A stretch of DNA of 64,000 nucleotides from an uncultured Sphingomonadaceae bacterium (lineage in GTDB: Bacteria > Pseudomonadota > Alphaproteobacteria > Sphingomonadales > Sphingomonadaceae), in NCBI GenBank assembly GCA_947489315.1, contig CANLCX010000001.1, forward strand, positions 251,501-315,500, read 5' to 3'. Positions 19,161 to 51,055 of the stretch are shown piece by piece; the first letter of the stretch is position 1; the number at the start of each line of letters is the position of its first letter. A program made the position numbers and the translations under genes. The notes under the pieces are model-generated. The model saw nothing but the letters and a program-made list of their open reading frames with translations, made no database searches and was not told where the DNA came from.

Positions 19161-19247
19161 GCCCAGATGGCGGAATTGGTAGACGCGCTAGCTTCAGGTG
19201 CTAGTATTCGCAAGGATGTGGAGGTTCGAGTCCTCTTCTGGGCACCA
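19161..19247 (+). tRNA. tRNA-Leu (CAG), CCA encoded; integration target
   Basis: An 87-nt class II tRNA: acceptor GCCCAGA pairing with TCTGGGC, D-loop with GGTAGAC, anticodon stem CTAGC/GCTAG with loop TTCAGGT (anticodon CAG), a variable arm, T-arm GAGGTTCGAGTCCTC and an encoded ACCA end. The last 16 nt lie inside the 20-bp direct repeat that bounds the island, so integration reconstitutes a functional tRNA end. Confidence 0.96.
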
Positions 19248-19251
19248 GATA
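19232..19251. repeat. Left attachment site (att direct repeat, tRNA-Leu side)
   Basis: This 20-bp sequence, exactly repeated at 50996-51015, covers the T-stem/acceptor 3' half of tRNA-Leu plus 4 nt downstream. This is the usual crossover region of tyrosine integrases that target tRNA 3' ends. Confidence 0.9.
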
Positions 19252-19462
19252 TTTTAATAAGTATCTGATATATAGGTGTAAATTTGGAACGATGAAATCT
19301 GGGCCACCTTTTGAGCCACCCCCTGTTTCTCACCGGAATGAGTAAGAATATACGACCAGTTGGTCTTTATTTTGTCTTTGCCAGAAATCTGCTACGCTTC
19401 TCCGACCCGGGCTTTTGCTAAACCCAGGGCATCATGATGCTCTCTTTCTAGGAGACATCGTG

Positions 19463-19642
19463 ATGAGGATAGTTTCTAAGCGTCAACTAAAGGAGATGGT
19501 TCTTTATTCGCCGCAACATATCGCAAGGCTGGAGAAGGCAGGCAAGTTCCCCAAGCGGGTAAAGCTGGGCCCGAACAGAGTGGGGTGGGTTGAGGGCGAA
19601 GTATTGGATTGGCTTCAGTCAAGGTTGAATTGCCGCGACTAA
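19463..19642 (+). CDS. AlpA-family regulator
   Basis: A 59-residue protein of the AlpA/phage CP4-57 regulator family, a small winged helix-turn-helix related to excisionases. Visible are RIVSKRQLKEMVLYSPQHIA (recognition helix), then LEKAGKFPKRVKLGPNRVGW and EVLDWLQSRL, all typical. The ATG at 19463 follows AGGAG by 8 nt; the frame is open further upstream but lacks a better start. AlpA proteins activate excision or integrase genes of islands; here the integrase is at the far end, 30 kb away. Confidence 0.85.
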   Translation: MRIVSKRQLKEMVLYSPQHIARLEKAGKFPKRVKLGPNRVGWVEGEVLDWLQSRLNCRD

Positions 19643-19891
19643 CCTACCGGCACTCCTTTTTAGGAGCGGGCGGCCAGGTGAATTTCTGGTCGCCCAACAA
19701 CTTTCAAGGGAACCTTGACAACCTGTTGGTTAGCTCCAAAGTTAACACCTAATTTAAGATTGTTTCCAAAAAGAACATCCATTGCTGACGTTTGTCTTAT
19801 AAATTTACACAATTATAGAGTGTAACTTGGGCACTTCGTTTATATAGTCATTTTATTCAGAAGCTATTTTCCGGGGGGATACTAGTCGAAA

Positions 19892-22474
19892 ATGCGCTTA
19901 AATGAATGGCCGAAATGGCTAACTGCCGAAGAAAGAACTTTGATTGATACTTTGGTTGCGAACGGGGTTGGTAGCGAAGTCGAATATGAGATGTTTCGGT
20001 ACAACGGGGACCCCGAAGTTATCGAACAATTGGATACTAGGCGGTTCAAATATTTCGCTAGAAGTCCGGACTACTACGATCCTTTGAAGATACTAAAAAA
20101 CGCTCCGTTTTGGATGCGAGAAATCGAAATTAAAAATTTCTCGACCTCTGTACGTCTGCGTAACGTATTTTCAGATACAGGAATAGAAACCATTGGGCAC
20201 TTATTAGATTTCAGCACTATCGAGCTTCTTTCACTTAGAAATATGGGAAGGAAGAGCTTGAGTGATCTATCAAATGCATTGCTAGAACTGAGCAAAAATC
20301 GACCGAATGATTACCCACCAATTTCTCGAGAGACCCCCCAATCGTCTAGCCAGGAACAGGATTTCAAACAATCATGGTTCTTTTTGATGGTAAAGGACAA
20401 TCCGGGGCTTAGAGCTCTCTTATCTGATGAGGGAATAGAAGATGAACTAACCTATTTGCAGCACAAAAATTCACTCTCCGATCGACTCAGGAAGCAAATA
20501 GACGACTATCGCTTCAAAGTACTCGTCAATTTAGCTGATCAAGATAATCCTATTGCGATATTAGAGATCGCCCCTAGTTGGTTGTTAAATACAGAAGTCG
20601 AATTCTTCCCGTGCCCGGCCCGGATCAAAAACATAGCATCTCGTTTAGATATTGATCGCCTTCACGACTTCCTTAAATTTGACTTTTTCACGCTACGTCG
20701 GATGCCCAATATGGGTATAAAGAGCCTTAGGGAATTCGCTAATGCGATTGTACTTGCGCAGGATAAAGGCCCTCCACCCACGCTTGAGAATCCCGTAAAT
20801 TTTGATGAAACTCTGTACGAATGTTTATTGAGCTCCATCAATTCCCTTGCTGATGAGAGGCACCGCTATATCATCCTAAATCGTTTCGGAGTGGGATGTC
20901 CTCCAATAACGCTCGAAGAAATTGGAACTTCTTTAAATATCACGCGGGAGAGAGTCAGGCAAATCCAGAAGAAAGTTACGCAAGCGATCACTGATGGAGA
21001 ATATTGGGATGACTCTCTAAAATTTAAAATTCTTCGTAGATTCAATGAGAAAAATGGACCGATTATTTTAGAGGAAATTGTCGAAGTTGACCCATGGTTT
21101 TCCGAATTTCAAAACCAAATGGGGCTACTGAAAAGGGTCATTGAGCATTTCGCCAACTTGAATTTACATTTATTCGATGTGGCTCGAAAGACAGTGATTT
21201 CCAAGATCTCGAAAGATGAATGGGATCAATGTGAAGCAGAAGTCTTGAGCTTTCTGGAACATAGCTTAGACATGAATTACAGTTTCGAAGATGTGGAGCT
21301 TATAATCGAACATCAACTCGCCAAGTATGATGCGGCCGAGCTTACAGAACTGTTGTTCGATGAAATATTGAGGGTGCTAAATTTTTCCAATTTTGATGGC
21401 GAAAGTGTTCTGGTTAACATCGGTAATTCAATATCAAACCGGCTGAACGTGGTTTTAGAAGAGAGTGATACTCCTCTGCACTACAGCAAAGCGAAACTGC
21501 ACTATGAGGAAAGATACGGTATCGTCGCTACCGAAAGGCAAATTCACTCTGCACTTTCTCACTACAATTTCCACTTGTTTGATCGCGGTGTATTTGGGGT
21601 ATTGAAGCACCTTCCAATCAGTTTGGAGCGCCTTGCCGAGTTAGTGGAGCAGGCTGAACAGTTGGCTAACGAAAAACGGAGTAAACAATGGCACACTTCA
21701 GAGTTGCTCAGAAAATTGGTGGGCCTACAAATAATTATTGAACATGAAGGGGTTGATAAATACGTATTGAATATCGGTTTACAGATATCTTCTAAGCTAA
21801 AGTACTTGGGAAAAATGGTTTGGATATGTGATGATATCGAGAACGTAAACGTACCCAGAATCCAACTCAAAGATGCGATACCAGTGATTATAAGAGACAA
21901 TGGTGGCCCGATGACGGTGAGAGAAATCGTAAATGAGTTAAAAAAGTCGCGGGGTGTAGGTTACGATATAACCCAACAGCTATACTTGAGTGATCTGATC
22001 GCTAAAACAGATCCTGGGCGTTGGGGTTTGCTATCGCGTGATTTTGAAAAGCCTCTTTCGTACTGGAGTTACATTAAAAGCGAAATTCTTGATCACTTGA
22101 GCGCTTGCGGGCAGGCAGTACACAAAAGTGAGATAATCGAGGTGTTGTCCAGCAGGGGTGTCAGTGAACTGCCGAAAATCAACCTTTTGCTTGGAATAAT
22201 CTCTAGCGATGAGGACTTCAGGACATGGCCTGGAGGGTTTTTTGGAATGGCATCACAAGATAATCCCAATCGCTTATCATTGTCGCAGGCATTAGCGAAA
22301 GTTTTGAGTTCGACAGATATCGAGTTCACTACTAACGAGATCATGGATTCGCTCTCGGCCTATGTGTCGTTCCCTTATAACAAGTCTCAATTGTCGAGAA
22401 TGATCAACGATTGTGGCTTTCAATATGAATTAGAGACTGGATATTGGACACACCAAAATTCTCAGACGACGTGA
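19892..22474 (+). CDS. Large DNA-binding protein: duplicated alpha-CTD-like unit, sigma region-4-like HTH and winged helices
   Basis: An 860-residue protein with no catalytic motif that I can see. Residues about 80-135 and 235-290 each end in a helix-hairpin-helix like that of the RNA-polymerase alpha C-terminal domain (LRNMGRKSLSDLSNAL; MPNMGIKSLREFANAI). The stretches before them are also alike, so residues 1-135 and 160-290 look like an internal duplication. Residues 305-366 match sigma-70 region 4 (TLEEIGTSLNITRERVRQI). The second half has several winged-helix-like units resembling HARE-HTH modules (MTVREIVNELKKSRG; VHKSEIIEVLSSRG; FTTNEIMDSLSAY). It converges on the Ssp operon, overlapping its last gene by 13 bp. 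A transcription regulator or DNA-binding part of the defence system is inferred. A 249-bp A+T-rich stretch before it (19643-19891) holds no gene. Confidence 0.75.
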   Translation: MRLNEWPKWLTAEERTLIDTLVANGVGSEVEYEMFRYNGDPEVIEQLDTRRFKYFARSPDYYDPLKILKNAPFWMREIEIKNFSTSVRLRNVFSDTGIETIGHLLDFSTIELLSLRNMGRKSLSDLSNALLELSKNRPNDYPPISRETPQSSSQEQDFKQSWFFLMVKDNPGLRALLSDEGIEDELTYLQHKNSLSDRLRKQIDDYRFKVLVNLADQDNPIAILEIAPSWLLNTEVEFFPCPARIKNIASRLDIDRLHDFLKFDFFTLRRMPNMGIKSLREFANAIVLAQDKGPPPTLENPVNFDETLYECLLSSINSLADERHRYIILNRFGVGCPPITLEEIGTSLNITRERVRQIQKKVTQAITDGEYWDDSLKFKILRRFNEKNGPIILEEIVEVDPWFSEFQNQMGLLKRVIEHFANLNLHLFDVARKTVISKISKDEWDQCEAEVLSFLEHSLDMNYSFEDVELIIEHQLAKYDAAELTELLFDEILRVLNFSNFDGESVLVNIGNSISNRLNVVLEESDTPLHYSKAKLHYEERYGIVATERQIHSALSHYNFHLFDRGVFGVLKHLPISLERLAELVEQAEQLANEKRSKQWHTSELLRKLVGLQIIIEHEGVDKYVLNIGLQISSKLKYLGKMVWICDDIENVNVPRIQLKDAIPVIIRDNGGPMTVREIVNELKKSRGVGYDITQQLYLSDLIAKTDPGRWGLLSRDFEKPLSYWSYIKSEILDHLSACGQAVHKSEIIEVLSSRGVSELPKINLLLGIISSDEDFRTWPGGFFGMASQDNPNRLSLSQALAKVLSSTDIEFTTNEIMDSLSAYVSFPYNKSQLSRMINDCGFQYELETGYWTHQNSQTT

Positions 22475-24618
22475 TGGTACAAGTCATATTTTTTTAAGTA
22501 AGGCTCTATATCAACATATGTGGATGATTTATTCAGTGCGAGACCCGCAAACTCATTGATGCGTTTTAATTCTGCTATCATCAATTTGCGACCTAACTCG
22601 GGGTCACTCACATTCTCCAATGGCAGAGTTGTGACGAAGTCATAAATGACAGCCTTGATTTTACCTTCACTTTTCCGCAGTATCCTACCTCTTCTTTGTA
22701 TAAACTGACGCTCTTTTCGCGAACTGGACATAATGAATGCTGTCGAGCAAAGTGGGATATCCACTCCTTCATCTAGGCATTTCATAGCCACTAAAGAATC
22801 TACTTTTTCATTCTTAAAATCGTCAAGAATGACGGCTCGGCGAGCTTTGTTCTCATTTGCAGTAAAACGAGACGATCTCCATCCATGTTTATGCAAAATG
22901 CTTGAGATAATTTCTATTTGCCTGAAACCTTCGTCATCCTCGTGATCCTCATTTTCCAGCATTCCTTCCGCACAGTAAAACAAGCTATGCTTTATGGGCT
23001 TTAAGGTTCCCAGCAGTTCTTCCAGAGCTTTCGGCTTGTTTTTTGATCCATTTACAAGTTTGGCGCGCTTGAGTAGCAGCGCGTTCAATCCATCTTCTTC
23101 TTGCTCGGACGGGAATTTTGTATTTTTCAGGATCGCATAGAGTTTTGCGATTTTCTTCGACAGCATTATATATTTTTCTGTCTCATCGGGTGTCATAGCT
23201 ACGGGTATTAAATGATACTCGTACGGTGTTAATACGTTGTCTTCCAATGCGTCAGCTAGAGAATACGTATCTACAATCTTGCCGTAATATTCCTCAATCC
23301 GCTGATTTCCGTCGTCTTCCGCACCTCTGTCAGGAGTCGCAGATAATCCCATTCTCAAATTCGCTGTTTCGGGCAGAGCTTTGTATGTAGAGTGAGCTCC
23401 ATGATGATGACATTCATCCCCCACAAACATAATGTACTCGGATAAATCTTTTCCGAGTAAAGTAAGGTTGTCTACAAATGTTCTTTTGTGGGAAGTCATT
23501 GTCGCATCCACAACGACCACTGCGACGAAATCGGTCAACCCACTTTTAAAGTCGAGAACCGCCTTCGCGAGTTGTGATGACCAATTTGCCTCACCACCGT
23601 AACAAACGATTGGTCTGACATTAAATATAGCAAGATTTTCGGCCCATTGATCCGCTAAGTTTTGATATGGGACGGCAACGACAAGAAAAAGGCGATTCCG
23701 ATTTTGGAACATTTTTATGGCCCCATAGATTGCCGTAATCGTTTTTCCTGACCCAGTTGCTAGTTCAAAAACTCCCCTAAAGTCATTGCTTTGCCAATTG
23801 TCCAATGCTCGTTTTTGGTGCTTGTGCAATTGAAATTTTCGATCACCTAGTCTGTCAGGAATGATGGGGTGGAGGCCACTTGGTGATGACATCATAGAGT
23901 CTAAGTGCTTCTGCCAAAGATCGATTTCCAATTGGATGTTCGGCCGTTGGACATCCGGATATTTCTTAGTTAAAGCGCTTCGAGCGATGGCAGATATATC
24001 CAACACTAACGTATCATTTGCTTTGTTGGACCAAAGCTTATTGAAGCTTGCAATATGAGGCTCAAAATGATCTCGAAATTCTGGAAGCCAACTTTTGAAG
24101 ACGTTTATTGTCTCATAGTTAAATGGAAGAAGAGCATTGTTAGTTTCGTTAGCAGAGCCTTGAAAAACAATAAAATCCCCCGCAATATCTTGAAAAACTC
24201 CGATTTTCTGATGATGAATGCCGTGGCGCCGCAATGCGATTTTGACATCAAGTTTCTCATTCTGGACCAACCACGTAAGTACTTGAAGCTGGTGTTCAAT
24301 TAGAGGATCATTGACTGTCGCGATGATTTGATCGAACTCATCTGAAATACGTTCTTCAAGCTGTCTAGCATCGTACCCTAAAGAAATTGCTTCGTACTCT
24401 GGCTCAGTCAGGGTTGAGCCGCAAATCAATCTCATGTGCCCATCATTATCAATAAATTTGCTAAGTCCGGCGGCTGAACTCGTTAGCATTTTGGCGTCAA
24501 AATACCCGACTGCGCGATCATATGATACGGACTTCGAGAGTACTGGAATGTAAAAATCCTGAAGAATATTATCTTCCTCAGAGTTGTACACTGCCTTTAG
24601 GTTTAGTTGCCTAAGCAA
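22462..24618 (-). CDS. Phosphorothioation-linked restriction enzyme: PLD nuclease + DEAD/DEAH helicase (SspH-like)
   Basis: A 718-residue protein. Residues about 30-190 are a phospholipase D-type nuclease domain (HHQKIGVF, catalytic His136 and Lys138; then FQGSANETNNAL). From about 260 there is an SF2 helicase: Walker A ATGSGKT (287-293), DECH box in MFVGDECHHHGA, SATPDRG, and motif VI QRRGRILRK. This architecture is that of the phosphorothioation-system restriction enzyme family (TIGR04095-like). The best start is TTG 24618, 2 nt after the previous stop; no ATG fits. Last gene of the minus-strand operon. The SspH assignment is from memory of the SspFGH module and should be confirmed. Confidence 0.82.
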   Translation of the reverse strand: MLRQLNLKAVYNSEEDNILQDFYIPVLSKSVSYDRAVGYFDAKMLTSSAAGLSKFIDNDGHMRLICGSTLTEPEYEAISLGYDARQLEERISDEFDQIIATVNDPLIEHQLQVLTWLVQNEKLDVKIALRRHGIHHQKIGVFQDIAGDFIVFQGSANETNNALLPFNYETINVFKSWLPEFRDHFEPHIASFNKLWSNKANDTLVLDISAIARSALTKKYPDVQRPNIQLEIDLWQKHLDSMMSSPSGLHPIIPDRLGDRKFQLHKHQKRALDNWQSNDFRGVFELATGSGKTITAIYGAIKMFQNRNRLFLVVAVPYQNLADQWAENLAIFNVRPIVCYGGEANWSSQLAKAVLDFKSGLTDFVAVVVVDATMTSHKRTFVDNLTLLGKDLSEYIMFVGDECHHHGAHSTYKALPETANLRMGLSATPDRGAEDDGNQRIEEYYGKIVDTYSLADALEDNVLTPYEYHLIPVAMTPDETEKYIMLSKKIAKLYAILKNTKFPSEQEEDGLNALLLKRAKLVNGSKNKPKALEELLGTLKPIKHSLFYCAEGMLENEDHEDDEGFRQIEIISSILHKHGWRSSRFTANENKARRAVILDDFKNEKVDSLVAMKCLDEGVDIPLCSTAFIMSSSRKERQFIQRRGRILRKSEGKIKAVIYDFVTTLPLENVSDPELGRKLMIAELKRINEFAGLALNKSSTYVDIEPYLKKYDLYHHVV

Positions 24619-24619
24619 T

Positions 24620-25111
24620 TTAAAAATCTACTTTTTCGAACGTTTGCTCTTTGTCTTCGCTTTTATTCGAACTCAATAAATCGTTGCGTTGCAAACCTGA
24701 GACGATAGCCTTTGCGCCATGGGGGTCGCTAGGAGTCTTAAGTAGCCAATTCGATAAAATTTCGAAGCCTCCGTTCGAATACTCTTCGAAAATCTCTACC
24801 ATGTCTTGATTAAAACCGTCTGCCTCGGAAGCTCCAACATCGTACCTCAGAACATCCAAATTTTTTGTTTCGCCAAGAGCAACTAAATATATGTAGTCGG
24901 TATAGGCATCATTATCGAACGTATGCCACTCTATGCTATCCACTTCTCCCTTCGGTAAAGGGATTCTCTGACCCATCTCGAATCCTAGAACAGCCGCATA
25001 GCATTGAAGCGCTTTTTTTGACGGAAATACCGCATGCCCCGTCTTAGGGTTCTTAGCGACTAACAAGTCGGTAAGGGCAGTATGTTGCTTACTTCTTCGT
25101 ATCCCTCTCAT
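24620..25111 (-). CDS. Phosphorothioation-associated protein 4 family (SspG-like?)
   Basis: A 163-residue protein whose pattern resembles the dnd-system-associated protein 4 family: an N-terminal segment ending VFPSKKALQCYAAVLGFEMG, then RIPLPKG, EWHTFDNDAYTDYIYLVAL (usually the Y-x-x-x-I-x-L-I-A-L-A motif), and EEYSNGGFEILSNWLL near the end. No catalytic motif is visible. Its AGGAAG ribosome site overlaps the stop codon of the SMC-like gene, so translation is coupled. It sits between the ATPase and the nuclease-helicase, which it probably assists in restriction. Confidence 0.72.
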   Translation of the reverse strand: MRGIRRSKQHTALTDLLVAKNPKTGHAVFPSKKALQCYAAVLGFEMGQRIPLPKGEVDSIEWHTFDNDAYTDYIYLVALGETKNLDVLRYDVGASEADGFNQDMVEIFEEYSNGGFEILSNWLLKTPSDPHGAKAIVSGLQRNDLLSSNKSEDKEQTFEKVDF

Positions 25112-25120
25112 GGTAACTTC

Positions 25121-27139
25121 CTAAAGAATCTGCTTTATAATTGTTCGGTCTTTCTCGGCTTCGTATACCGAGCATGCAATTTGCTCTCCTTTGACGGTTA
25201 CAATATCCTCCGGTTTGTCACCTCGTTCAGATCTGTTTTCCGATATAAGAATATATTCGGATCCAATCTTATCCTCCAGAACCTTTATAACGTCGTCATC
25301 ACCTTGTGTTTTTGAAAGTAGAAGAATTACTTGCCCAGATGAGTTAGGTAAAAACTCAGCAGTTGATTGCCGGTAAGTCGGATCTAACTGGCCAAAAGGC
25401 GAATCTAACATCAAGGGAGCCATCGTACCGGGCTTCAATAGATGAGATTCATCAGTTCGCCTGTTCGCCGCAAATTCTACCAAAGAGGCAATGAATGCTA
25501 AGCTAAGAAGCTGGTTCTCACCGCCGCTTTTAGCTACGGGCAATTCTGTGCTCCCATAAAACATATCTAGATTGAAGGAACCATCGATAGATGAGTAATA
25601 ATCTCTCCGAGCAGTTTTTCTCAAGATCTTATTTACCTTCTCGTTGATTTCAGAACGAGAGGTCTCTCTATAATTATCTAGCTCGGCATCCAATTTGTCT
25701 GATGTAGCCGATAAGATGGCAGTCTTATATTGTAAATTCTTTGCTCGATCATTGTGAAGAAGGAGCTTGTCCCTCTTCTTTTTCATCTCGTCGATTTCTA
25801 TCTTAGCATCTTCACAAGCCTTTTTGAGGCGAGCTTTTTTACCCACCATATTCTCGATTTCAGCCTCTTTGGTGGATAATGCTAATTGTCGTTCCGCGAT
25901 CTCTCGAACGTTACTTCCTTGAAGCTGTTGCTTACATTCGTTTATTCCTAACTCGTAATCGTCTATCTTGTCAGCAACCTTTAAAAAGTCCTGATGTATC
26001 GCCCCAAAGTTGTCAACTGAGACCTTATGTGCCTGCTCCAACTTACCCATCCTGCTTCGAATGTTCATTAGACGATCACTCAAAACTGCTGTGCCAGCCT
26101 CTTTGATAAGTTCTGAAATTGCCGCAGATTCTTTCGTCTCTTTGTCGAATTCTCGATCACAAATACAGATTCCTTTTTCCAAAATATCATGCACAAATGT
26201 GTCTGCTATTTTGCTTGGAAGGTGGCCTTTAACATTAGCTTCCTCGATTACGTTTATACAATTGAGATGTAGCTTTTTTGACAACAGACCAATACTATCG
26301 TGATCTATCCATTTGGTTTCACGAGCCTCAATCTTCGCTTTCTCATCAAGCGCATCTTTCCGTCTTTGTTCTAGCTTCTCTTTTTTCTCCTGAATCTCTT
26401 TCGCTCCCTCCGTATTTCGGAGCGTTTCCTCAATATTCTTCTTAATGTTTTTTGCCTGCTCAAGATCGCTTTCTATGCGGGTTATCTCATTTTCATCTAG
26501 TTGCATCTGCGAGCTCAACTTGTCGATTGATGATTGAAAAGTGGCAGACCTATCGTTCTTAGTAAGGGCAGCGATCTCTTTCTCTAGCTTCCTCTCGATC
26601 GCTGCGATGTCCTTGGAGGCTTGTAACGCAATATTGCAGCCCAACATGCTCTCCACAGCTACTCTGACCTCTCTGCGGTTGTTGCTGCTCGCGAACGCCT
26701 CAGCGTATTCTCCATCAAAGAAGAAATATTTGGACATTTCTTTTGGAATGACAGTTTCCACAAAAACCATTGCGCTGTTCAATTTTTGATAATCGCCTCC
26801 GTCAATAAGAAAAGCGTCGAAACTCTCCTCTGCAAATTCGCTATTTGTGGTTCGTGAAACAAGATAGTGGCTACCATCATGTTCAAAAAAGACTTCTACA
26901 GAGGCCTTGAAGTCTTTTTCCTCAATCGCCTGGTTGCAGACAATGTTTTCTGGGTTTTCAAATCGAGCTGATGTGTCATTATAAAAACACCATAGTAGCG
27001 CATTTAACAGAGTAGTTTTACCCACTCCATTTTCAGCATGAATAAGCGTTACATTTCTCGCCTTATCACAAGAAAACTCTATTTCTTGTTCGCCATAGAA
27101 CTGGCGAAAATTATTGAGTACGATCTTTTGCAGTAGCAT
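25121..27139 (-). CDS. SMC/Rad50-like ATPase, DndD family (SspF-like?)
   Basis: A 672-residue ABC-type ATPase. The N-terminus has the AAA_23/Rad50-like opening LNNFRQFYGEQEIEF and Walker A ENGVGKTTLLNAL. A long coiled coil follows, broken near the middle by KGICICDREF, a C-x-C pair like a zinc hook. The C-terminus has the ABC signature KSGGENQLLSLAFIASL and Walker B MAPLMLDSPFGQLDP. This is the DndD architecture. In Dnd systems DndD is part of modification; here, placed with the associated-4 and nuclease-helicase genes, it more probably belongs to the restriction module. Starts 6 nt after the preceding small gene. Confidence 0.82.
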   Translation of the reverse strand: MLLQKIVLNNFRQFYGEQEIEFSCDKARNVTLIHAENGVGKTTLLNALLWCFYNDTSARFENPENIVCNQAIEEKDFKASVEVFFEHDGSHYLVSRTTNSEFAEESFDAFLIDGGDYQKLNSAMVFVETVIPKEMSKYFFFDGEYAEAFASSNNRREVRVAVESMLGCNIALQASKDIAAIERKLEKEIAALTKNDRSATFQSSIDKLSSQMQLDENEITRIESDLEQAKNIKKNIEETLRNTEGAKEIQEKKEKLEQRRKDALDEKAKIEARETKWIDHDSIGLLSKKLHLNCINVIEEANVKGHLPSKIADTFVHDILEKGICICDREFDKETKESAAISELIKEAGTAVLSDRLMNIRSRMGKLEQAHKVSVDNFGAIHQDFLKVADKIDDYELGINECKQQLQGSNVREIAERQLALSTKEAEIENMVGKKARLKKACEDAKIEIDEMKKKRDKLLLHNDRAKNLQYKTAILSATSDKLDAELDNYRETSRSEINEKVNKILRKTARRDYYSSIDGSFNLDMFYGSTELPVAKSGGENQLLSLAFIASLVEFAANRRTDESHLLKPGTMAPLMLDSPFGQLDPTYRQSTAEFLPNSSGQVILLLSKTQGDDDVIKVLEDKIGSEYILISENRSERGDKPEDIVTVKGEQIACSVYEAEKDRTIIKQIL

Positions 27140-27145
27140 TGCTTT

Positions 27146-27292
27146 TTATTCCGTAATATCTTCGAGTGCTTCTAGGATTTTATCCCTTCTTGCACTTTCT
27201 TGCCCCCCGCGCATGAATGCAGGACTTTCTTCTATTTCGATAACACGTTCTAAAAACTTATCAATTTCAGTTTGATCTGGTTTTTGTGACAT
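27146..27292 (-). CDS. Small 48-residue protein in the phosphorothioation operon
   Basis: A short frame not long enough for routine ORF calling: MSQKPDQTEIDKFLERV at the start, acidic and predicted helical, ending EALEDITE. The ATG is preceded by GGGAGGGAC at a good distance, and the stop is 6 nt from the SMC-like start, so it is well placed for translation. It contains MRGGQESARRDKI in the middle. I know no family. A small subunit for the SMC ATPase, or a regulator, is a guess based on position. Confidence 0.6.
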   Translation of the reverse strand: MSQKPDQTEIDKFLERVIEIEESPAFMRGGQESARRDKILEALEDITE

Positions 27293-27363
27293 TTCTGTCC
27301 CTCCCATTTATGTGGCAAGTTATCAAGTAATATAGATCGTACAGTTTAATTATGTATCTCTGT

Positions 27364-28200
27364 TTACTTGTGGCAAGCCAGGCATGATTTTGCTTGCCCA
27401 TAAAGGTCGTCGATGTCTAGCGGTTCAGCATCTGGCCTCAAAGGATTTTTGATTGCCTTCGATTTCATCCGTTTAACTCTAACCTCATGATCGGCTTTGA
27501 TCTTTGCCACACGCTCAGGTTTCGCAAGTTGTTCAAGTGATTCGCCGTGACTCCAAGTGAAAGGAGATCCATGCTCAACCGCTGTTTTTTCGTAGGTCTT
27601 AGCCTCTTCAAAAGCATCTGGGTGTCGATCCATCAGTCTTACCCATTCGATTTTCTGCTGAAAAAAGCAGAATGTACATCCACTGCGAGTTCGCCATTCG
27701 TAGTATCTTGGCAAGCCCAATCCCGAGCCTTCCAAGATTTCCAATACGCCAGGCTTGTCCACGCTAGCCTCTTTGAACGGTAGCTTGACGATTAGGTTAT
27801 CGTCTTTGGATGCGTAGCCTTCTCGATATTCTTCGTCACTGCGGATTGCGACATAGGAATACACCGTCTGTCCATCTTCAAGCATGGGTTTTACCCACTG
27901 CTCAAAAGGACGGAGCTTCAGCTGCCGAGTACACCAGCGCGTTTGAGCAGAGGGTAGAAAGCTATTGTATTGTTTTAGCCAGAAATCAAAATCACGGTCG
28001 GGATTGAGGCGTTGGACGGGCTTGCCGAGAACGCCCTCTAAGCGGCCCAAAAATTCATAGACTTCGGGAAGCTCTTTACCTGTATCGGTAAAGAAATATT
28101 CAACTTCAATTTCGGGGTGGTACTGGCGCATATAGACTGCAAGAGCCGCGCTATCACGTCCTCCTGACAAACCTAAAACGTGGCGCTCTTTTTCAGGCAT
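27364..28200 (-). CDS. sspD: PAPS-reductase/ATP-pyrophosphatase family, SspD/DndC-like
   Basis: A 278-residue enzyme of the phosphoadenosine-phosphosulfate reductase superfamily. The PP-loop is GLSGGRDSAALA close to the start. Cysteines in TRWCTRQLKL, RSGCTFCFFQQK and the C-terminal KSCLACHK could bind an iron-sulfur cluster, as in DndC. It is expected to activate the DNA phosphate with ATP and place sulfur delivered by the desulfurase. ATG 28200 is chosen (GGAGA at 8 nt); it lies inside the end of the methyltransferase gene (8-nt overlap). An upstream start at 28227 is possible but less likely. Confidence 0.82.
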   Translation of the reverse strand: MPEKERHVLGLSGGRDSAALAVYMRQYHPEIEVEYFFTDTGKELPEVYEFLGRLEGVLGKPVQRLNPDRDFDFWLKQYNSFLPSAQTRWCTRQLKLRPFEQWVKPMLEDGQTVYSYVAIRSDEEYREGYASKDDNLIVKLPFKEASVDKPGVLEILEGSGLGLPRYYEWRTRSGCTFCFFQQKIEWVRLMDRHPDAFEEAKTYEKTAVEHGSPFTWSHGESLEQLAKPERVAKIKADHEVRVKRMKSKAIKNPLRPDAEPLDIDDLYGQAKSCLACHK

Positions 28201-28837
28201 TATTAGGTTCTCCAAAGCGCTCGGCAATGGCGTTAAGCCATTTACCGCTACCTTTAAAACTGTCTTCTCCGAGAGAAGTCCAAATTTCTTGTATTTTTAG
28301 ACATCTGACTTGATCAAATATCGCTGTAAGACCATCTTCATCCAAATCTGTATAGCATCTCCCATCGTCATAACATCTCTCGGTGTCGCCGTAACGGAAT
28401 GACACGTAAATTACGCCACCTACTTTCAAAGCCTTTGCAAGTCGTTCTAAGTTACTTGGGATATCTTTCTTCGCTAGGTGCAGCATCGACGCACACGCCC
28501 ATACGCCGTCATACTCTTGGCGTTCTTTAACATCTTCAAAAGACCGAACTTGAGTTTGAATACCAGTCAGTAGCGAGCTTATAGCGGCTAGGCGAGGCGA
28601 ATAGTCGAATGCCGTAACTCTATAGCCTTTACCCAAAAAATATTTTGTGTCGCGACCAGAGCCAGAACCAGCATCTAAGATTGAACAATTTTTCGGTAAA
28701 TACTTTTCAAATTGTGGATAAATATTACCCATATTAACCGAGACAGTTTCTGCTGCATAATGATCGGCATGATCTTCATAATATTCCCAGGTGGAATTAT
28801 CTGAAAATTCTCTGATCTGAGATATGGATGACGTCAT
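28193..28837 (-). CDS. Class I SAM-dependent methyltransferase
   Basis: A 214-residue Rossmann-fold methyltransferase. Motif I is SILDAGSGSGRDTKYFLGKG, followed by VTAFDYSPRL (acidic ribose contact), then YDGVWACASMLHL and LKVGGVIYVSFRYG. This is the arrangement of TehB/UbiE-like small-molecule methyltransferases; there is no DNA-methylase catalytic motif such as DPPY or PCQ. The gene overlaps both neighbours (4 nt and 8 nt), so it is an integral part of the operon. The substrate is unknown; methylation of a system component or of a sulfur species are both conceivable. Confidence 0.78.
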   Translation of the reverse strand: MTSSISQIREFSDNSTWEYYEDHADHYAAETVSVNMGNIYPQFEKYLPKNCSILDAGSGSGRDTKYFLGKGYRVTAFDYSPRLAAISSLLTGIQTQVRSFEDVKERQEYDGVWACASMLHLAKKDIPSNLERLAKALKVGGVIYVSFRYGDTERCYDDGRCYTDLDEDGLTAIFDQVRCLKIQEIWTSLGEDSFKGSGKWLNAIAERFGEPNNA

Positions 28838-29358
28838 TTAGTTTCAGCCCCAGAAGTCCAACCAAATAGCAAAACCAAAAAAGCGATCACAATTCCTGCG
28901 ATAATTAGATAGCCCACAAATTGACTAGAGCCGAATGGCCAATAATAGTTCATTGCTGCGAAGGAAGAAAACAAAGCTGCTAAGAATAATTGAAAACACA
29001 GCAAACTAGCCATACTGTTGTTCTGAAGCAGTGGACGTCTTGCAGCATTTGGCTTCCCGTTGACAAATGAAGTTGGGCAAAACTCTTCAATTTTATCAAG
29101 ATAGCATTTGAAAACCTGCCGAACGCGGAAGGTTGATAAAATGAGGGAAAGGTTGGTCAAGAATGCCAAAAAGAGAAGGCCAAAGCTCGCAAGTTCTGGT
29201 ATTCCTTTAACAGCCACACCTCCGTACCAAAGTCCGCCCGTCAACGTGATCGAGACAATCGGGATTTGAACCATTTGGCTATTAAGTGATCGAGCTTGTA
29301 GAAAATTCTGCTCGTAGCAAAGCTTTTCTCTTTCGAAATCGTTGGTGGGCTCATCCAT
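28834..29358 (-). CDS. Four-helix membrane protein in the phosphorothioation operon
   Basis: A 174-residue protein with a cytoplasmic-looking N-terminus (MDEPTNDFEREKLCYEQNF), a first hydrophobic pair around residues 30-75 (one weak, one strong), a charged loop of about 35 residues, and a second pair at about 115-140 and 148-168. The pattern resembles small SLATT-like membrane effectors, but I cannot show homology. It overlaps the SspC-like gene by 8 nt and the methyltransferase gene by 4 nt. It may anchor the system or act as a membrane effector. Confidence 0.6.
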   Translation of the reverse strand: MDEPTNDFEREKLCYEQNFLQARSLNSQMVQIPIVSITLTGGLWYGGVAVKGIPELASFGLLFLAFLTNLSLILSTFRVRQVFKCYLDKIEEFCPTSFVNGKPNAARRPLLQNNSMASLLCFQLFLAALFSSFAAMNYYWPFGSSQFVGYLIIAGIVIAFLVLLFGWTSGAETK

Positions 29359-32300
29359 TGGAAAGCACTTCCTGACCCTTATTTTTTCCTACATTTTTAC
29401 TGGATTGGACTGTCTTGATATTTTTTCTGTTTATGTATTCGTACGATAGTTCGGCTAATGCAGCGAAAACAATGTTCTCGTTTTCAGGCTTTTCGTCGTC
29501 GATACTCTGAATCAGCTTCGCAGCTATCAACTTAGCCTTCTTCCTGTCTCCGTCGTTTACATCAAACTCGTTCATGTAAGGGGCTGGGCGATTTCCCATG
29601 CCGACAACAACTGCCATAGAGTGACGTTTATCCTCACGACCTTTAACTCTGGCAAAAACTTCTGCACGATTGAACTGTTGTGCAAAATCAGTCAGTTCAA
29701 TAGCCGCCTTGTCGAGATCTGAATCTATCCAATCTCGCGCTGGTTTATTTGTCGCCAAACTAGCTAAGCCTTCAATGTCCGCTCTTCGACCTTCATACAT
29801 CGCGAGGCGCCCAACATAGGCATTCAACCTAAAATCACCACTTAACTCTCTTATGTTTTCGGCCCGGTCACATAATTCGGCTAAAGCCTGTGCGGAGGAA
29901 TTAGGCACCTGCAACTCTGCAAGCATATTGTCCGCAAGTCGCTCGAGCATACTAGGATATGCGCCGACAAGTTCTTCCAAGCCGTCTCGAACGCGATTTA
30001 TGATTTTTTGGAAACCAGCATCCGACTTAAGTTCACCTTTTTCCCCTGCCAAAAGAGGAAGGTCATTAAAGATAAACTGATTAGGATCGTTTGCTTTTTT
30101 GAATAACCCACGAATTTGAATGGCGTTAGAAGACAGACGCATCGTGCGTTGTGTCCACCCAGGCAAACTCACAAATATTGCTATCAAGCCTCTACCTACA
30201 TCAATAGGCTCCATGTTTTTAAGGCTGTTAGAGTTATCAAGCTCACGGACGATTTCTGCTAATCCTGACAATAGCTTTCGCCCAAGGTCATTCAGATTCA
30301 TCCATCGAAGTTGAATATCAAGCGGGTCTTTCGCGAGGTAGTCAATATCCAAGTCTGTGAAACGAGCTTGGAAAATCTGACGATTGTATAACGCTACCTT
30401 GTCCTGCTTCGATTGGATGTAGGCGACTGCCAAGACTGGCATAATACCATCTTTTACGCCGAACGGTTCTTTGCGCCAAAGATCGTAAATTTCGCTCAAA
30501 GTTACCGACCTATTTTCAAGTTCGGAGAGCATTTTATCGGTAGCATCCCACAGCGGCGCAAGGTTTGAAACATCGGTTTTATCTGATTTGGGCGAAACAA
30601 AACGCCAAGTCTTCCCATTTTTTTGATAGAGATTGGACTGCTCTAAAATAGAGGCGAATAACCCACGTTCTGCTGGAAAGCCTTCGATGCCAAGGTATTC
30701 TTGACCCTCAAATTGGACCATTCTTTTCAACAAACCGTTTTGGCCAGCAATGGCACTGCCTGATGGCTTCATTCGGTTTAGAAGTTCATTTGCAATGTGG
30801 GGGCAATTTGGGAACCTCTTATCGGCCAAAGTAGAGGCCAAAGTGCTAAGTGCTGACTGCGTAAGCAGCTTTTCTTTCTGATCCCTAAGATACCAAGTGG
30901 CAGAATCAAAAGTACGTTGCAATTCAGTTTCTAGTTGGGCTTGAAGCATGGAAATTCGAGCCATAACCTCGCGCCTAGCTACAGCGTCACCAAGCAACTC
31001 CGAGCGCGTTTCTCTTACGTTTTCAAGCGATAACAAGTCGCTTGCCAGCGCGCTTATTGCCCATGACCTTGATGAAAAACCCGCCACAATGTCGTGGTTT
31101 CTTGAGGTCTTGCTGGCCTTACGGGCAATCTCTTCTGCTTCTTTCGCACTTTCATTTTTTGTCGGAATACATAAGAGATATAGACCTATGCTATCAGCAC
31201 TCGGTTCGAATTTTTCGGCTTTTTCTATAGCCTCTTCGACTGGCGCAATCTCTATATCCATCCAACGAAGTGCGCCTGTTTTATGATAATGGCGCTTTGC
31301 CATCATAGGTTGGAGTCCAGCAAGTTCGTTTATTCTCTCGAAATCAACCTTCTCGATGTCCGATGCAGACTGGAGCATTGCTTGTTCTAGGTCGAAATCG
31401 CTCCCAGCAAAAAGGGCGTAACCTCCAAGGAATTTTTTGAAAAGAACAAGTGACCAATCACTCAGTTGGTTGACTAATTTTTTCGCTTTTACTGGACTCT
31501 TATCACCACGAGCTAGGCTCAAAATTTCCTGATTGGCTATCAACCCTGAACGGCCTTTAAAAAGGTCGATCACGGCAATTGTTTTGAGCAAGTCAATTGA
31601 CTCAAGGTCGCCGCCTAATGTTTCACATCTCGCAATTGCTTCTGCCGCTATTGCCCACCGATGCCCGTCTGGGGACGCTAAGATTGATGGCTCGAGGCTT
31701 AATTGCAGATAATCCCAAAGGAGGGCGGGAGTATATAAATCTTTATCAGTCGCTCGGCTCAAAAAATCTTGGAAACCCATAGGCTCTGCCGAATTGAGAA
31801 AACCAAATAAACTGCGCTGATTTTGCCCGAAACGTCGTTTTGAAATTGGGCCAAGCAATGCAGCTACGATGGGATGAAGTGGCCAACAATTGGAAAGGGA
31901 GGATGCCAAATGCTTCGAAATCGAACCTTTTTGGCCCTGCATATTCTTAGCGACATGACTCGCTAATTCATCATAGTGCTTGGGTGTTTGTGATGTTTCA
32001 ATGGCGCGGGATAGCAAGTCAATCTGCTCTTCTCCAGCCGCGTTGACGATCAAGTCAACAAAACGCCCTTGAACTTTTGACCATTCATCCCGTACATCGC
32101 GACCTAAGCGATTTGCGTATTCATCGAAAGCCTGATGCAGGATACCGATAAATACGAATTTGCCATTACTTCTCGAAGCAAGCTCGGCTATTTGTTGGAA
32201 AATATAAAGATCGCCATTATCCTGTGCAGATGCCTCTAAGACCTTACCCATCTCATCAGCTACAAGCAAAAGTCCGTCATGCTTTGTAGATGCGATGATA

Positions 32301-32764
32301 TTAGACAATGTAGAAAGGAGTGTATCGTCGCTCCACGGTTTTTTGGACGCTTTAGCAAGTCCGTTAGCTTCCAACGACTCCCCAACGACTTGTGCAAGGC
32401 TTGCGCGCCGCCCCACCGCTCCGACAACAGCCCAACCGTTTTTAGACACTGGCATTGCATTTTGGATTTGATCCGCCACTTGCTTGCCGACAACTCTAAC
32501 GCCTTCGGGGCGCAGTTCTTTATCCGCACTCAAAAGTGAGTTAAGAACCAAAACTAAGCTAGATTTTCCGCTTCCATACGGACCTGTCCATGTGAATGAA
32601 GCGTGTCCCGATGATGAGAGATGCGTTGCCATGCTTGTCAAAACATCCTCGGAAGATTTTGGACATATAAACCCTTCCAAAGCAGAAAGGTTGTTCATGT
32701 CCGCATCAATACGAATAGATTTTTGGAATCGCCGAGCGATTGTTACGTTTTCAGAGAGTGTCAT
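29351..32764 (-). CDS. sspC: Large P-loop ATPase, SspC-like
   Basis: A 1137-residue protein with an N-terminal P-loop ATPase domain: Walker A TWTGPYGSGKSSLV (residues about 59-71) and Walker B GLLLVADEMGKVLE. The C-terminal two-thirds are mostly helical with no motif that I recognise. It directly follows the DUF4007 gene (TAATG overlap), the arrangement of sspB-sspC. SspC is reported as the ATPase partner of SspB and SspD in single-strand phosphorothioation. Naming rests on gene order and the P-loop, not on a sequence search. Confidence 0.72.
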   Translation of the reverse strand: MTLSENVTIARRFQKSIRIDADMNNLSALEGFICPKSSEDVLTSMATHLSSSGHASFTWTGPYGSGKSSLVLVLNSLLSADKELRPEGVRVVGKQVADQIQNAMPVSKNGWAVVGAVGRRASLAQVVGESLEANGLAKASKKPWSDDTLLSTLSNIIASTKHDGLLLVADEMGKVLEASAQDNGDLYIFQQIAELASRSNGKFVFIGILHQAFDEYANRLGRDVRDEWSKVQGRFVDLIVNAAGEEQIDLLSRAIETSQTPKHYDELASHVAKNMQGQKGSISKHLASSLSNCWPLHPIVAALLGPISKRRFGQNQRSLFGFLNSAEPMGFQDFLSRATDKDLYTPALLWDYLQLSLEPSILASPDGHRWAIAAEAIARCETLGGDLESIDLLKTIAVIDLFKGRSGLIANQEILSLARGDKSPVKAKKLVNQLSDWSLVLFKKFLGGYALFAGSDFDLEQAMLQSASDIEKVDFERINELAGLQPMMAKRHYHKTGALRWMDIEIAPVEEAIEKAEKFEPSADSIGLYLLCIPTKNESAKEAEEIARKASKTSRNHDIVAGFSSRSWAISALASDLLSLENVRETRSELLGDAVARREVMARISMLQAQLETELQRTFDSATWYLRDQKEKLLTQSALSTLASTLADKRFPNCPHIANELLNRMKPSGSAIAGQNGLLKRMVQFEGQEYLGIEGFPAERGLFASILEQSNLYQKNGKTWRFVSPKSDKTDVSNLAPLWDATDKMLSELENRSVTLSEIYDLWRKEPFGVKDGIMPVLAVAYIQSKQDKVALYNRQIFQARFTDLDIDYLAKDPLDIQLRWMNLNDLGRKLLSGLAEIVRELDNSNSLKNMEPIDVGRGLIAIFVSLPGWTQRTMRLSSNAIQIRGLFKKANDPNQFIFNDLPLLAGEKGELKSDAGFQKIINRVRDGLEELVGAYPSMLERLADNMLAELQVPNSSAQALAELCDRAENIRELSGDFRLNAYVGRLAMYEGRRADIEGLASLATNKPARDWIDSDLDKAAIELTDFAQQFNRAEVFARVKGREDKRHSMAVVVGMGNRPAPYMNEFDVNDGDRKKAKLIAAKLIQSIDDEKPENENIVFAALAELSYEYINRKNIKTVQSSKNVGKNKGQEVLSNG

Positions 32765-33720
32765 TATGCTGCCCTCTGCATTTTAGTAGATTTGTAATCT
32801 GATTTTATGAGATCGTATCGCTCCGTTTCGGTCATTTCTTTACGGCGGCTTATCTGCTTCAATCCTGCGGTCTCTGACCATGTGATTTTACCACGCGTAA
32901 TGTCTTCAATATCACTTATGCGGCGGAGTAATTCGTTTTCATCAAGACTGAAAACCCGCCCCGGAGAGCCCGGCTCGTGTGCTAGCGCCTCGAACGAAAG
33001 GGAGTTTGCCCCACTAAAATCGTTCCAAAACTCCGCAACTGCAAATGCAAAAACGCCCTGGCCAAGACTCGATTGTTCTCCGCGAACAAAACGGAAACCG
33101 TCTTTTTTACCTGTAGCTTTCAAGAGGTTAAGTTCGACCAATGGAGATTCGAGGCTTTCTTCGTGCAGGCCCCCTCGCGCGGTGGGTTTTGCAGCATATG
33201 TTCGAACGAAACACTCCACATCCTTTTTGACGGTTGCGGGTGATACTCTCGACCACTCTCGCTCGGATGCGAGGCGCAACAGTTCTTTGGCAAGTGTTTC
33301 GCGCTCAAAATTTAGCGCATGGAAATGATTGAAAGCAAAATACCAAGTTGTGCGGTCGGGCTGTCCACAAAGCTTCCAATGCGTCAACCAAAGTGTGGCG
33401 ACATTTTCCATGAAGGGGTCGAGACCTTCCTCCCCAAATATGAGATCGCCAATCTTAGCCGTTTGAATTTTTGTATTATCGACGGTTTCGATAATCCCGC
33501 AAGCCTGCGCCCAATAGCGAATAGAAGATACCATGTTTTTACCAACTCCAAAAGTGGCGATGGCACTGCCATCGGTAAAAATGGCTTTATTCTGCTGTTC
33601 GTCTCGCGCTCGCCATACATGATCATAGGCTTTTTTGAGCCATCCGTACCTAAGCGGAAACGTCTCATGTCCTGAAAATTGTGGGCTGTAGTTTTTAGAG
33701 TATAGTTTTCCGCGTGACAT
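32764..33720 (-). CDS. sspB: DUF4007 protein, SspB-like nickase
   Basis: A 318-residue protein whose N-terminus carries the DUF4007 signature FSGHETFPLRYGWLKKAYD, followed by FGVGKNMVSSIRYWAQACGI. DUF4007 is the domain of SspB, described as the nicking component of the SspABCD phosphorothioation system; in the Dnd type this role is filled by different proteins. It is the first gene of the minus-strand operon and starts 148 bp from the divergent desulfurase gene. I do not see a canonical nuclease motif by eye. Confidence 0.85.
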   Translation of the reverse strand: MSRGKLYSKNYSPQFSGHETFPLRYGWLKKAYDHVWRARDEQQNKAIFTDGSAIATFGVGKNMVSSIRYWAQACGIIETVDNTKIQTAKIGDLIFGEEGLDPFMENVATLWLTHWKLCGQPDRTTWYFAFNHFHALNFERETLAKELLRLASEREWSRVSPATVKKDVECFVRTYAAKPTARGGLHEESLESPLVELNLLKATGKKDGFRFVRGEQSSLGQGVFAFAVAEFWNDFSGANSLSFEALAHEPGSPGRVFSLDENELLRRISDIEDITRGKITWSETAGLKQISRRKEMTETERYDLIKSDYKSTKMQRAA

Positions 33721-33729
33721 ATTGCTAAC

Positions 33730-33804
33730 CTGGATGTTGTTTCCAGTTAGACGCTAGCAACAAACATGTGATTACGTCAAAGCAAAACTGGAGAGACCTT
33801 CCAG
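33730..33804. promoter_or_regulatory. Two CTGGA-N7-TCCAG dyads between sspB and sspA
   Basis: Site 1 (33730-33746) and site 2 (33788-33804) share the same 17-bp design: CTGGA, seven variable bases, TCCAG, followed in both by TT. Their centres are 58 bp apart in the 148-bp divergent promoter region. Equal spacing and equal arms are what a dimeric repressor needs, so these look like operators controlling both transcription directions. The binding protein is unknown. Confidence 0.6.
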
Positions 33805-33868
33805 TTTGATCAAAAAACTAACACGCCAATTTCGGATATCAGAAGTCCCTCCAACATATTGAATAACA

Positions 33869-35029
33869 ATGAAAATATCTAATTCCTATTATTTTGACCA
33901 TCAGGCCACTTGTCCGCTTGATTCTAGTGTTTTTGACGAAATGTGCCATTTTATGGTGAATTCGGTCGGGAATTCACATTCAAGCGAGCATGCTTTTGGA
34001 TGGGAGGCAGGCAACGCCGTATCGAACGCCACAACTAAAATCGCTGAAATGGTGGGGTGTGATCCTGATGAAATATTTTTCACCTCTGGTGCAACTGAAG
34101 CAAACAATCTTGCAATTAAGGGGTATGGGTTCGGAACTAGAGAAACTCTGATCCATAGTAGCATCGAGCATAAATGCGTGATTGAGGCAGGACGCTATTT
34201 GGAAGCGCAAGGTGGTTTAAAGATTAGATCGGTGGGAGTTGATACAGAGGGTAGGATCGATCTCGACGAGCTGGTGGCAATGGCAAGCAATACAATTTCA
34301 ATGTTTAGCTTTATCGGTGTGAACAATGAGATCGGGACTATACAAGATTTTCATAAGATCGCCGATATCTGCCGAAGACACGGTATTAAGATTCATGCTG
34401 ACATGGCTCAAGCTCCCTTAGCTATGAATTTGCGAGATATGATCGATTGCGTCGACACGCTCAGCTTATCCGCTCACAAATATTACGGCCCTATGGGGAT
34501 AGGATGTCTCTATATTCGACGCGATGTTCAACATGAGTATAGCCCTCAAATTCATGGTGGAGGACAACAGTCAGGAATGCGGTCTGGCACCGTACCGGTT
34601 CCATTAGCCGTTGGGATGGGAAAAGCTTCAGAGATTATTATGCAAAATACCTCAGAGAGGGATGACATGCGCGCAGTAAATCAATTGCTTTGGGACCAAA
34701 TCAAAAAATTGGATTTCGAAGTAGCTTTGAATGGTCCATCACTAAATGATCGTCATCCTGGAAGCCTTAACGTCAGTTTTGCAGGCTTCGATAGCGCTGA
34801 TATTATCGCAGCGGTTCAACCCCATTTGGCTATTTCAAGCGGTTCTGCTTGCTCCTCAGGAACTATAGAGCCGTCATATGTCGTCCAAAACAGTACGAGA
34901 AATTTCGAAAGATCAAAGTCTGCAATTAGGTTTGGCATCGGCCGCAGCACTAACGAGAACGATGTTGGTAATGCTGTTGCGATCCTCGACCGAGCGTTAC
35001 GTAAAATCTCAGAGATAGCCAAGAACTAG
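33869..35029 (+). CDS. sspA: Cysteine desulfurase, SspA/DndA/IscS-like
   Basis: A 386-residue PLP enzyme that takes sulfur from cysteine as an enzyme persulfide and supplies it for DNA phosphorothioation. Visible are DHQATCPLD at the N-terminus, FTSGATEANNLAIKG, the aspartate in IKIHADMAQAPL, the PLP-lysine in LSLSAHKYYGPMGIG, and the mobile-loop catalytic cysteine in SSGSACSSGTIEPSYV. Length and loop are IscS/DndA-like. It is divergent from the ssp operon, sharing the promoter region. A housekeeping IscS is unlikely given its location in the island. Confidence 0.88.
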   Translation: MKISNSYYFDHQATCPLDSSVFDEMCHFMVNSVGNSHSSEHAFGWEAGNAVSNATTKIAEMVGCDPDEIFFTSGATEANNLAIKGYGFGTRETLIHSSIEHKCVIEAGRYLEAQGGLKIRSVGVDTEGRIDLDELVAMASNTISMFSFIGVNNEIGTIQDFHKIADICRRHGIKIHADMAQAPLAMNLRDMIDCVDTLSLSAHKYYGPMGIGCLYIRRDVQHEYSPQIHGGGQQSGMRSGTVPVPLAVGMGKASEIIMQNTSERDDMRAVNQLLWDQIKKLDFEVALNGPSLNDRHPGSLNVSFAGFDSADIIAAVQPHLAISSGSACSSGTIEPSYVVQNSTRNFERSKSAIRFGIGRSTNENDVGNAVAILDRALRKISEIAKN

Positions 35030-42300: not shown

Positions 42301-42609
42301 ATTTTTATTGATTAAACTGATAACACTGCATCAGCTTAATCTGTACCGACAGATCAGACTAGGTAGTTCATCCCCCCTCATTTTGTAAGTTTCGTTACCC
42401 TAGACAATCTCGACCACCTATGCGGTATGTGCGCGTTCGGTGCCAGATAGGTAGAACCTATCTGGTCACTGCAATACCGCATTGGTGATCACTCTAAGGG
42501 TAAGCATTGGAGTATAGGCAGATTACCGTGTTTTGCAGATCAATGCTAGAGAGCTAACTGCCACCAAAGCGCCCTAGTTTGAAATCCGCTCTTGCCGTTC
42601 AATAAGGCA
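42301..42609. other. Structured non-coding segment with nested inverted repeats
   Basis: About 300 bp without a gene but with several symmetrical sequences. GATTAAACTGAT (42310-42321) and ATCAGCTTAATC (42330-42341) form an inverted repeat with one mismatch. TGCGGTAT (42421-42428) and ATACCGCA (42474-42481) enclose a perfect 10-bp hairpin CCAGATAGGT-AGA-ACCTATCTGG (42443-42465), flanked by GTG/CAC. GTGATCAC (42485-42492) is an 8-bp palindrome. The first copy of the 20-bp direct repeat (42564-42583) closes the region. Candidates are a transfer origin, a replication or recombination site, or a structured RNA. Confidence 0.55.
42564..42583. repeat. 20-bp direct repeat, copy 1 (upstream of ATPase gene)
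   Basis: CCAAAGCGCCCTAGTTTGAA, exactly repeated at 43784-43803. The two copies flank the ATPase gene 42610-43773 almost precisely. Confidence 0.85.
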
Positions 42610-51015: not shown

Positions 51016-51055
51016 CGCTTTTAAGTTGCTGAATATCAGGTAATATTTTAAACTT

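Follow-up and report, generated by a model that had tools for sequence, protein, structure and literature searches.

One of the closest described relatives of the system discussed here is the Pbe module, which in the available part of PMC6459918 lies beside the Dnd genes for DNA phosphorothioation (PT). There, archaeal Pbe stops an unmarked virus and a PT-marked virus escapes; defence depends on all four pbe genes, on pbeA in part only, and PbeB and PbeD measure 66 and 152 amino acids, respectively. The accessible sections of PMC10853773 describe PbeC as an ATPase of the CxC type and PbeD as a cognate of DndE. For SspABCD, another PT writer, the part of PMC8092258 at hand counts 2,211 of 2,678 sspBCD loci with neither SspE nor SspFGH and suggests that more diverse restriction partners exist. 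Here, we analysed a stretch of 64,000 nucleotides (the window) from an uncultured Sphingomonadaceae bacterium (GenBank assembly GCA_947489315.1, contig CANLCX010000001.1, positions 251,501 to 315,500). By family, the window carries an intact SspABCD locus, and what is new here is a putative Pbe partner for this Ssp writer, together with a recurrent candidate accessory made of a membrane protein and a methyltransferase.

The locus is a run of nine closely spaced minus-strand genes, from 33720 down to 22462, with sspA divergent from it. PADLOC profiles matched all four Ssp proteins. SspA (33869-35029, +) is a cysteine desulfurase (SspA 1e-114, DndA 1e-109), in which the catalytic-cysteine loop SSGSACSSGTI (Cys328) and the SAHK lysine are intact. 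SspB (32764-33720, -) is a DUF4007 protein (PF13182 7e-92; SspB 6e-108), and SspC (29351-32764, -) is a BrxC-like P-loop ATPase (E=0, 1319 bits). SspD (27364-28227, -, with a likely start at ATG 28200) is PP-loop/PAPS-reductase-like (8e-137), and its SGGRDS loop is intact. Thus, the sequence-only reading was right to see an Ssp-type PT locus with a divergent desulfurase, and its ATPase and PP-loop genes do not belong to unrelated families. The DUF4007, P-loop ATPase, PP-loop, DndD-like ATPase, TIGR04062 and PLD-helicase genes that it listed are all real and closely spaced on the minus strand, but its inventory omitted a membrane gene, an S-adenosylmethionine (SAM)-dependent methyltransferase gene, a 48-amino-acid open reading frame (ORF) and a sigma-like gene. 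A promoter consensus scan between sspA and sspB gave four weak matches against 0.9 expected, from which no promoter is called.

The restriction half of the locus is, judging from profile matches and gene order, a PbeABCD-type module and not SspFGH. Downstream of sspD, after a gap of 71 bp, a 48-amino-acid ORF (27146-27292, -) occupies the PbeB slot, to which it is assigned by position alone; ORFs of 55-74 amino acids also stand ahead of the ATPase in six other loci (L006, L010, L012, L013, L014 and L105). It is followed by PbeC (25121-27139, -; PADLOC PbeC 8e-180), a DndD-like ABC ATPase whose CxC motif (CIC at 325) is invariant across the four rows of its alignment (A6). The PbeD slot holds a TIGR04062 protein of 163 amino acids (24620-25111, -; 3e-18, 66.3 bits). 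The run ends with PbeA (22462-24618, -; PADLOC PbeA 4e-233), which combines a PLD-like domain (PLDc_2 4e-5, under its cut-off) with an SF2 helicase (ResIII 6e-19); HxK and DECH motifs are present, and GSAN is visible in the translation. The identities of SspA-D, PbeA and PbeC are firm; for the PbeB and PbeD slots, the assignment is weaker. The statement in the sequence-only reading that DndE is missing needs qualification, as the TIGR04062 protein fills the slot of PbeD, the DndE cognate in print (PMC10853773, available sections).

The slot order of the Pbe genes in the window is also met in Dnd-linked Pbe loci. In L013 and L120, it runs sigma-like, PbeA, a 63-amino-acid protein, PbeC and TIGR04062; in L126 and L127, PbeC, a TIGR04062-like protein and PbeA are followed by dndBCDE and a desulfurase. 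The window has a corresponding sigma-like gene (19892-22474, +), which is convergent with pbeA and overlaps its 3' end, and which encodes a protein with RpoA-CTD and sigma-70 region 4 domains (PF03118 9e-14, PF04545 7e-10). Its relatives include the products of the sigma-like genes next to the CxC modules of L012 (3e-32) and of L013, the latter with similarity limited to a short segment (6e-9). It is a possible partner of the Pbe module.

SspABCD was found beside a Pbe module in the window, on a Rhizobium indigoferae plasmid (L010), on a Sphingomonadaceae plasmid (L006) and in genome G124. The window, L006 and G124 have their Ssp and Pbe genes adjacent and on the same strand; the Pbe genes of L010 run convergently to sspD. 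In a sample of 367 genomes from the class of the window, SspD was strong (>100 bits) in 9 of the 45 genomes with any match, PbeA was strong (>=350 bits to one of five PADLOC PbeA models) in 6, and the two were adjacent in 2, namely the genome of the window and G124. The threshold for PbeA was set at 350 bits because its model matches 364 of 367 genomes via generic helicases; two partial matches, in G344 (178 bits) and G042 (163 bits), fell below it. Among plasmids, 25 PbeA records were obtained at E<=1e-30, and at least two of them have SspD as a neighbour, a minimum, as the listing covered 40 of the 207 SspD records. Eight SspD loci on viral contigs gave no Pbe or membrane-methyltransferase match, two of them (L112 and L119) ending within 2 kb of sspD; a search of viral contigs with the PbeC alignment gave four weak, short matches.

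In a tree of 17 PbeA proteins, one group (100/100) unites the window with two Dnd-linked proteins and L010, and another, placed elsewhere (100/100), unites L006 with G124. A single Ssp clade was rejected for the four Ssp-linked proteins in this tree (p=0.0006) and for the three Ssp-linked ones among 15 PbeC proteins (p=0.022); L105, whose PbeC ends at a contig edge, was left out of the latter tree. Since both trees reject a single Ssp clade, the simplest reading suggests that Ssp and Pbe were coupled at least two separate times. A literature search, with most subscription journals outside its reach and some of its result lists capped, found no paper on an SspABCD-PbeABCD pairing.

Between sspC and sspD, the window has a membrane-METHYLTRANSFERASE unit. 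It consists of a membrane protein of 174 amino acids (28834-29358, -), which shows hydropathy segments and is homologous to the N-terminal part of a protein that fuses a membrane domain to a methyltransferase and is encoded beside dnd and ssp loci, and of a class I SAM-dependent methyltransferase of 214 amino acids (28193-28837, -; Methyltransf_25 4e-11, TehB 1e-7, PDB 3e23 2.6e-17). The frames overlap at every junction, by 8 nt between sspC and the membrane gene, by 4 nt (ATGA) within the pair and by 8 nt between the methyltransferase gene and sspD. In six other loci (L002, L003, L004, L005, L006 and L010), sspC is followed directly by sspD without an insert. Scans of the membrane protein against Pfam, NCBIfam and PADLOC gave no family at E<=0.1, and its sole plasmid match was the N-terminus of a 333-amino-acid methyltransferase fusion, which Rhizobium sp. 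NXC14 encodes immediately upstream of dndBCDE.

Homolog searches with alignments A1 and A2 gave 21 loci including the two starting ones, or 20 distinct loci, as G1037 and L018 (Hasllibacter halocynthiae) were counted as one. Two members are weak, L016 (a metagenome-assembled genome in which the reading frame is interrupted) and L019 (with a C-terminus that looks cut). Within the stretches fetched, which reach at most about 10 kb per side and less at contig ends, ssp or dnd genes lie near the unit in 14 of the 20, Ssp genes in the window, L016, L030, L041 and L043 and Dnd genes in L011, L017, L018, L020, L021, L022, L023, L029 and L039. In the window, L043 and L041, the pair consists of two separate genes overlapping at ATGA, and it is fused in 13 of the 20 loci (L011, L017-L023, L029, L030 and L038-L040). 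The unit accompanies three restriction modules, Pbe in the window, an SspH-type module in L043 and a helicase/GHKL/PLD set in L030; therefore, its link appears to be to the writer and not to one restriction module. The same literature search gave no description of such a unit.

What the methyltransferase acts on can be approached through its fold and its relatives. A model of the L017 fusion, built from seven rows, had a mean predicted local distance difference test score (pLDDT) of 79.7. It shows three long helices, and its class I methyltransferase domain is predicted at about 90. The best 50 of its 1699 Foldseek matches included 3h2b, TPMT, UbiG, ChlM, cyclopropane fatty acid synthase, and phospholipid and peptide methyltransferases; some of these 50 are uncharacterised and none is described as a DNA methyltransferase, a result that concerns the L017 fold and not the window protein itself. 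By sequence, the window protein is nearest to the uncharacterised 3e23 and, more weakly, to TehB. Its Pfam and PDB sequence searches gave no row described as a DNA methyltransferase, and neither did the best 60 of 146 matches of a further search, in which a few RNA methyltransferases appeared lower down. A DPPY/NPPY-like motif is read as a sign of a DNA methylase; the alignment has SAM-type motifs and no such motif. Profile, fold and motif evidence thus disfavour a DNA methylase. We also considered the family named 'DNA phosphorothioation-associated putative methyltransferase', which we take to be TIGR04096. It was not among the 14 families matched at E<=0.1, and blastp against the cut L015 protein that bears this name gave E 0.41, so that membership in this family is not supported. 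The enzyme probably methylates a small molecule rather than a DNA base. This molecule is perhaps sulfur-containing, a guess drawn from the fold and the company of the desulfurase.

Homologs of the window methyltransferase without a membrane domain occur on three plasmids, outside PT loci. The homolog in L008 is fused to a DEAD/DEAH helicase, and those in L007 and L009 are near HNH genes, in L007 also near cas genes.

We consider it rather probable (about 0.72, for the whole reading jointly) that the island carries a PT-based self/non-self defence composed of the SspABCD writer, the Pbe module and the membrane-methyltransferase pair as a recurrent accessory of the modification side. Gene identities, order, overlaps and recurrence are observed here, and all activities we infer from the families. 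SspA-D would write PT marks on host DNA, with Ssp supplying the mark in place of the Dnd of the published Pbe system. The Pbe module, that is, the PbeB-slot ORF, PbeC, the PbeD-slot protein, PbeA and perhaps the sigma-like protein, would scan DNA and either block the replication of unmarked DNA or damage it. The membrane-methyltransferase pair, with frames overlapping sspC and sspD, may assist the PT modification side. A more specific and doubtful idea, offered as speculation, is that the pair is an overlooked membrane component, in which a TehB/TPMT-like methyltransferase held at the membrane works for either writer, Ssp or Dnd, irrespective of the restriction module, and S-methylates sulfide or persulfide, or PT on incoming DNA. 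If so, PT chemistry would be connected to detoxification or to damage at the membrane.

Several observations pull the other way. PbeA reaches 448 bits with TIGR04095 (cut-off 600), PbeC 142 bits with the DndD model TIGR03185 (cut-off 245.85), and the PbeD-slot protein falls short of the TIGR04062 cut-off of 74.25 bits, which its homolog in L010 passes. The family comparison proposed in the sequence-only reading held for DUF4007 and left TIGR04095, TIGR04062 and DndD below their cut-offs. The small ORF in the PbeB slot matched no family in profile scans. An hhalign comparison of the TIGR04062 protein with DndE was weak (E 0.069, probability 0.8%), and the single-sequence fold of the PbeD-slot protein had a pLDDT of 36.9, too low to use. 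The PbeA and PbeC trees contain long branches, and one of the two warnings for the PbeA tree concerns L006. As far as the available part of PMC6459918 goes, Pbe partners Dnd marks, it showed no cleavage of viral DNA, and loss of the Dnd writer abolishes protection with growth remaining normal. Because of the last two points, Pbe is not a plain restriction-modification pair. PMC10853773, by contrast, argues for cleavage. As for the unit, the seeds of A1 were a single sequence from an Ssp locus and a single one from a Dnd locus, a start that favours PT-linked relatives, and several of the 14 PT-linked loci, Dnd cases, have one common arrangement and so are not independent.

The sequence-only reading had taken the last three genes for an SspFGH-like module attacking unmodified DNA. 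It shares its logic with a published system, as SspFGH is also a multigene partner beside sspBCD (PMC8092258, available part). We ruled this assignment out at the family level, and as an explanation of the locus we find it hardly credible. These genes matched PbeA, PbeC and TIGR04062, and no PADLOC SspF, SspG or SspH model was among the matches listed at E<=0.1 for 10 window proteins (the best 25 for two of them). The same library gave SspF at 1e-227 on L002, a plasmid of Ca. Tenderia, and SspH at E=0 on L043, two positive controls that leave SspG without one. A whole-genome search for SspF found no match, with its own 14-genome control panel equally silent. In the available text of PMC8092258, SspF has a Walker A motif and SspH an FtsK-like C-terminus; FtsK/HerA-like proteins of the island (35813-37933 and 42592-43773) lie outside the operon and match no SspH model. 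The sequence-only reading also stated that SspE is missing, and this is borne out, with no GmrSD_N (DUF262, SspE-type) domain in the whole genome and control matches in 8 of 14 genomes. DndC (TIGR03183) likewise had no match in the whole genome, its control matching in 5 of 14 genomes, none over the cut-off; both results favour the Ssp-Pbe reading. A second self mark beside PT, written by the methyltransferase as a DNA base methylase, would agree with the DNA methylases of some Pbe/CxC systems (PMC10853773, available sections), including those on plasmids L012, L122 and L123. The searches and the motif evidence given above go against it, as does the small size of a protein with a membrane partner, and we judge it quite improbable.

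Ssp and Pbe may also be mere neighbours in a defence island; Pbe would then act by itself or use a different mark, and Ssp would be an orphan modifier. On those three plasmids, DNA methyltransferase genes accompany the Pbe/CxC modules and the fetched stretches show no PT genes, which is consistent with this, and so are the 71-bp gap and the convergent Pbe genes of L010. Against it stand the same-strand adjacency in the window, L006 and G124 and a pairing that apparently arose more than once, and we consider mere neighbourhood unlikely. A serious, if less probable, option is that the membrane-methyltransferase pair is passenger cargo with no role in PT defence. The unit is rare: the class sample has it in 1 of 385 genomes and a phylum sample in 3 of 398, each count including the genome of the window; in the families of two matches, it was present in 7 of 249 and 2 of 198 genomes. 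Furthermore, 6 of the 20 loci have no sspD/dndC-type neighbour in the stretch fetched. L019, L038 and L042 lack ssp or dnd neighbours, the sequence around L024 and L025 breaks off at the end of a contig or of the stretch fetched, and L040 has a DGQHR-like gene alone, at which point its contig ends. The domain-less homologs on the three plasmids agree with this option as well. However, frames overlapping inside sspBCD, and recurrence beside Ssp and Dnd, split and fused, with three restriction modules, speak for an accessory.

The locus is on a genomic island of about 31.8 kb, as had been proposed. It is bounded by a tRNA-Leu(CAG) gene (19161-19247, +), which with the left attachment repeat spans 19161-19252, and by a right attachment repeat (50991-51016, +) copying the tRNA 3' end (79% over 42 nt, with a 15-nt exact match at 50997), next to a tyrosine integrase (49691-50830, -; Arm-DNA-bind_3, Phage_int_M and Phage_integrase). 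The GC content is 0.41-0.49 between 18 and 50 kb and 0.52-0.60 outside. Besides this integrase, the island encodes a large serine recombinase (43976-45505) and a Replic_Relax protein (37933-38886), and its two HerA/T4CP-like ATPases gave weak PADLOC mad8 matches (1e-9 and 8e-17, respectively). Just inside its left end is an Rfam Trans44_sRNA (19430-19685, 209 bits), which was present in 2 of the 30 genomes of a search among relatives, the window's own included, and thus looks accessory. Outside the island, two copies of a 32-nt repeat, 94% identical (53729-53760 and 55014-55045), flank a GGDEF gene.

Another recurrent neighbour of SspABCD is a set of an SF2 helicase, a GHKL-type ATPase (HATPase_c_3, MzaB-like) and a separate PLD protein, seen in L003, L004, L030, L106, L107, L113 and, in part, L118. 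It is perhaps one more restriction partner. PbeABCD would thus be one named candidate partner, apparently acquired more than once, for the sspBCD loci that lack SspE and SspFGH, and the helicase/GHKL ATPase/PLD set a second. The pairing also makes it possible to ask what restriction modules recognise, the PT mark as such or the Dnd-specific context of that mark, and the recurring membrane-methyltransferase unit draws attention to a side of PT biology not found described in the literature searched.

DndCDEA-PbeABCD of Haloterrigena jeotgali (PMC6459918, available part) has a cassette of PbeA, small PbeB, PbeC ATPase and PbeD beside a PT module. The window resembles it in PbeA and PbeC and has candidates in the PbeB and PbeD slots, whereas in the window the mark would come from SspABCD, the operon contains the extra membrane-methyltransferase pair, and a sigma-like gene is adjacent. 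SspABCD-SspFGH of Vibrio anguillarum FF-93 (PMC8092258, available part) has SspBCD and a multigene partner in common with the window, in which that partner is of another type. SspABCD-SspE has SspABCD in common with the window, whose genome lacks a GmrSD_N match. The CxC ABC-ATPase-DndE systems (PMC10853773) combine a CxC ATPase, an HKD-SF2 helicase and a small protein, as the window does, with varied modification modules; the available text of section 16 of that paper gives Dnd genes or cytosine methylases as modification partners and does not mention Ssp. Finally, the methyltransferase has the class I fold and SAM loop of TehB/TPMT-like small-molecule methyltransferases (PDB 3h2b, 3e23, 2xva and 3bgd), from which the type in the window differs by its membrane partner, as a gene or a fused domain, and by its location in a PT locus.

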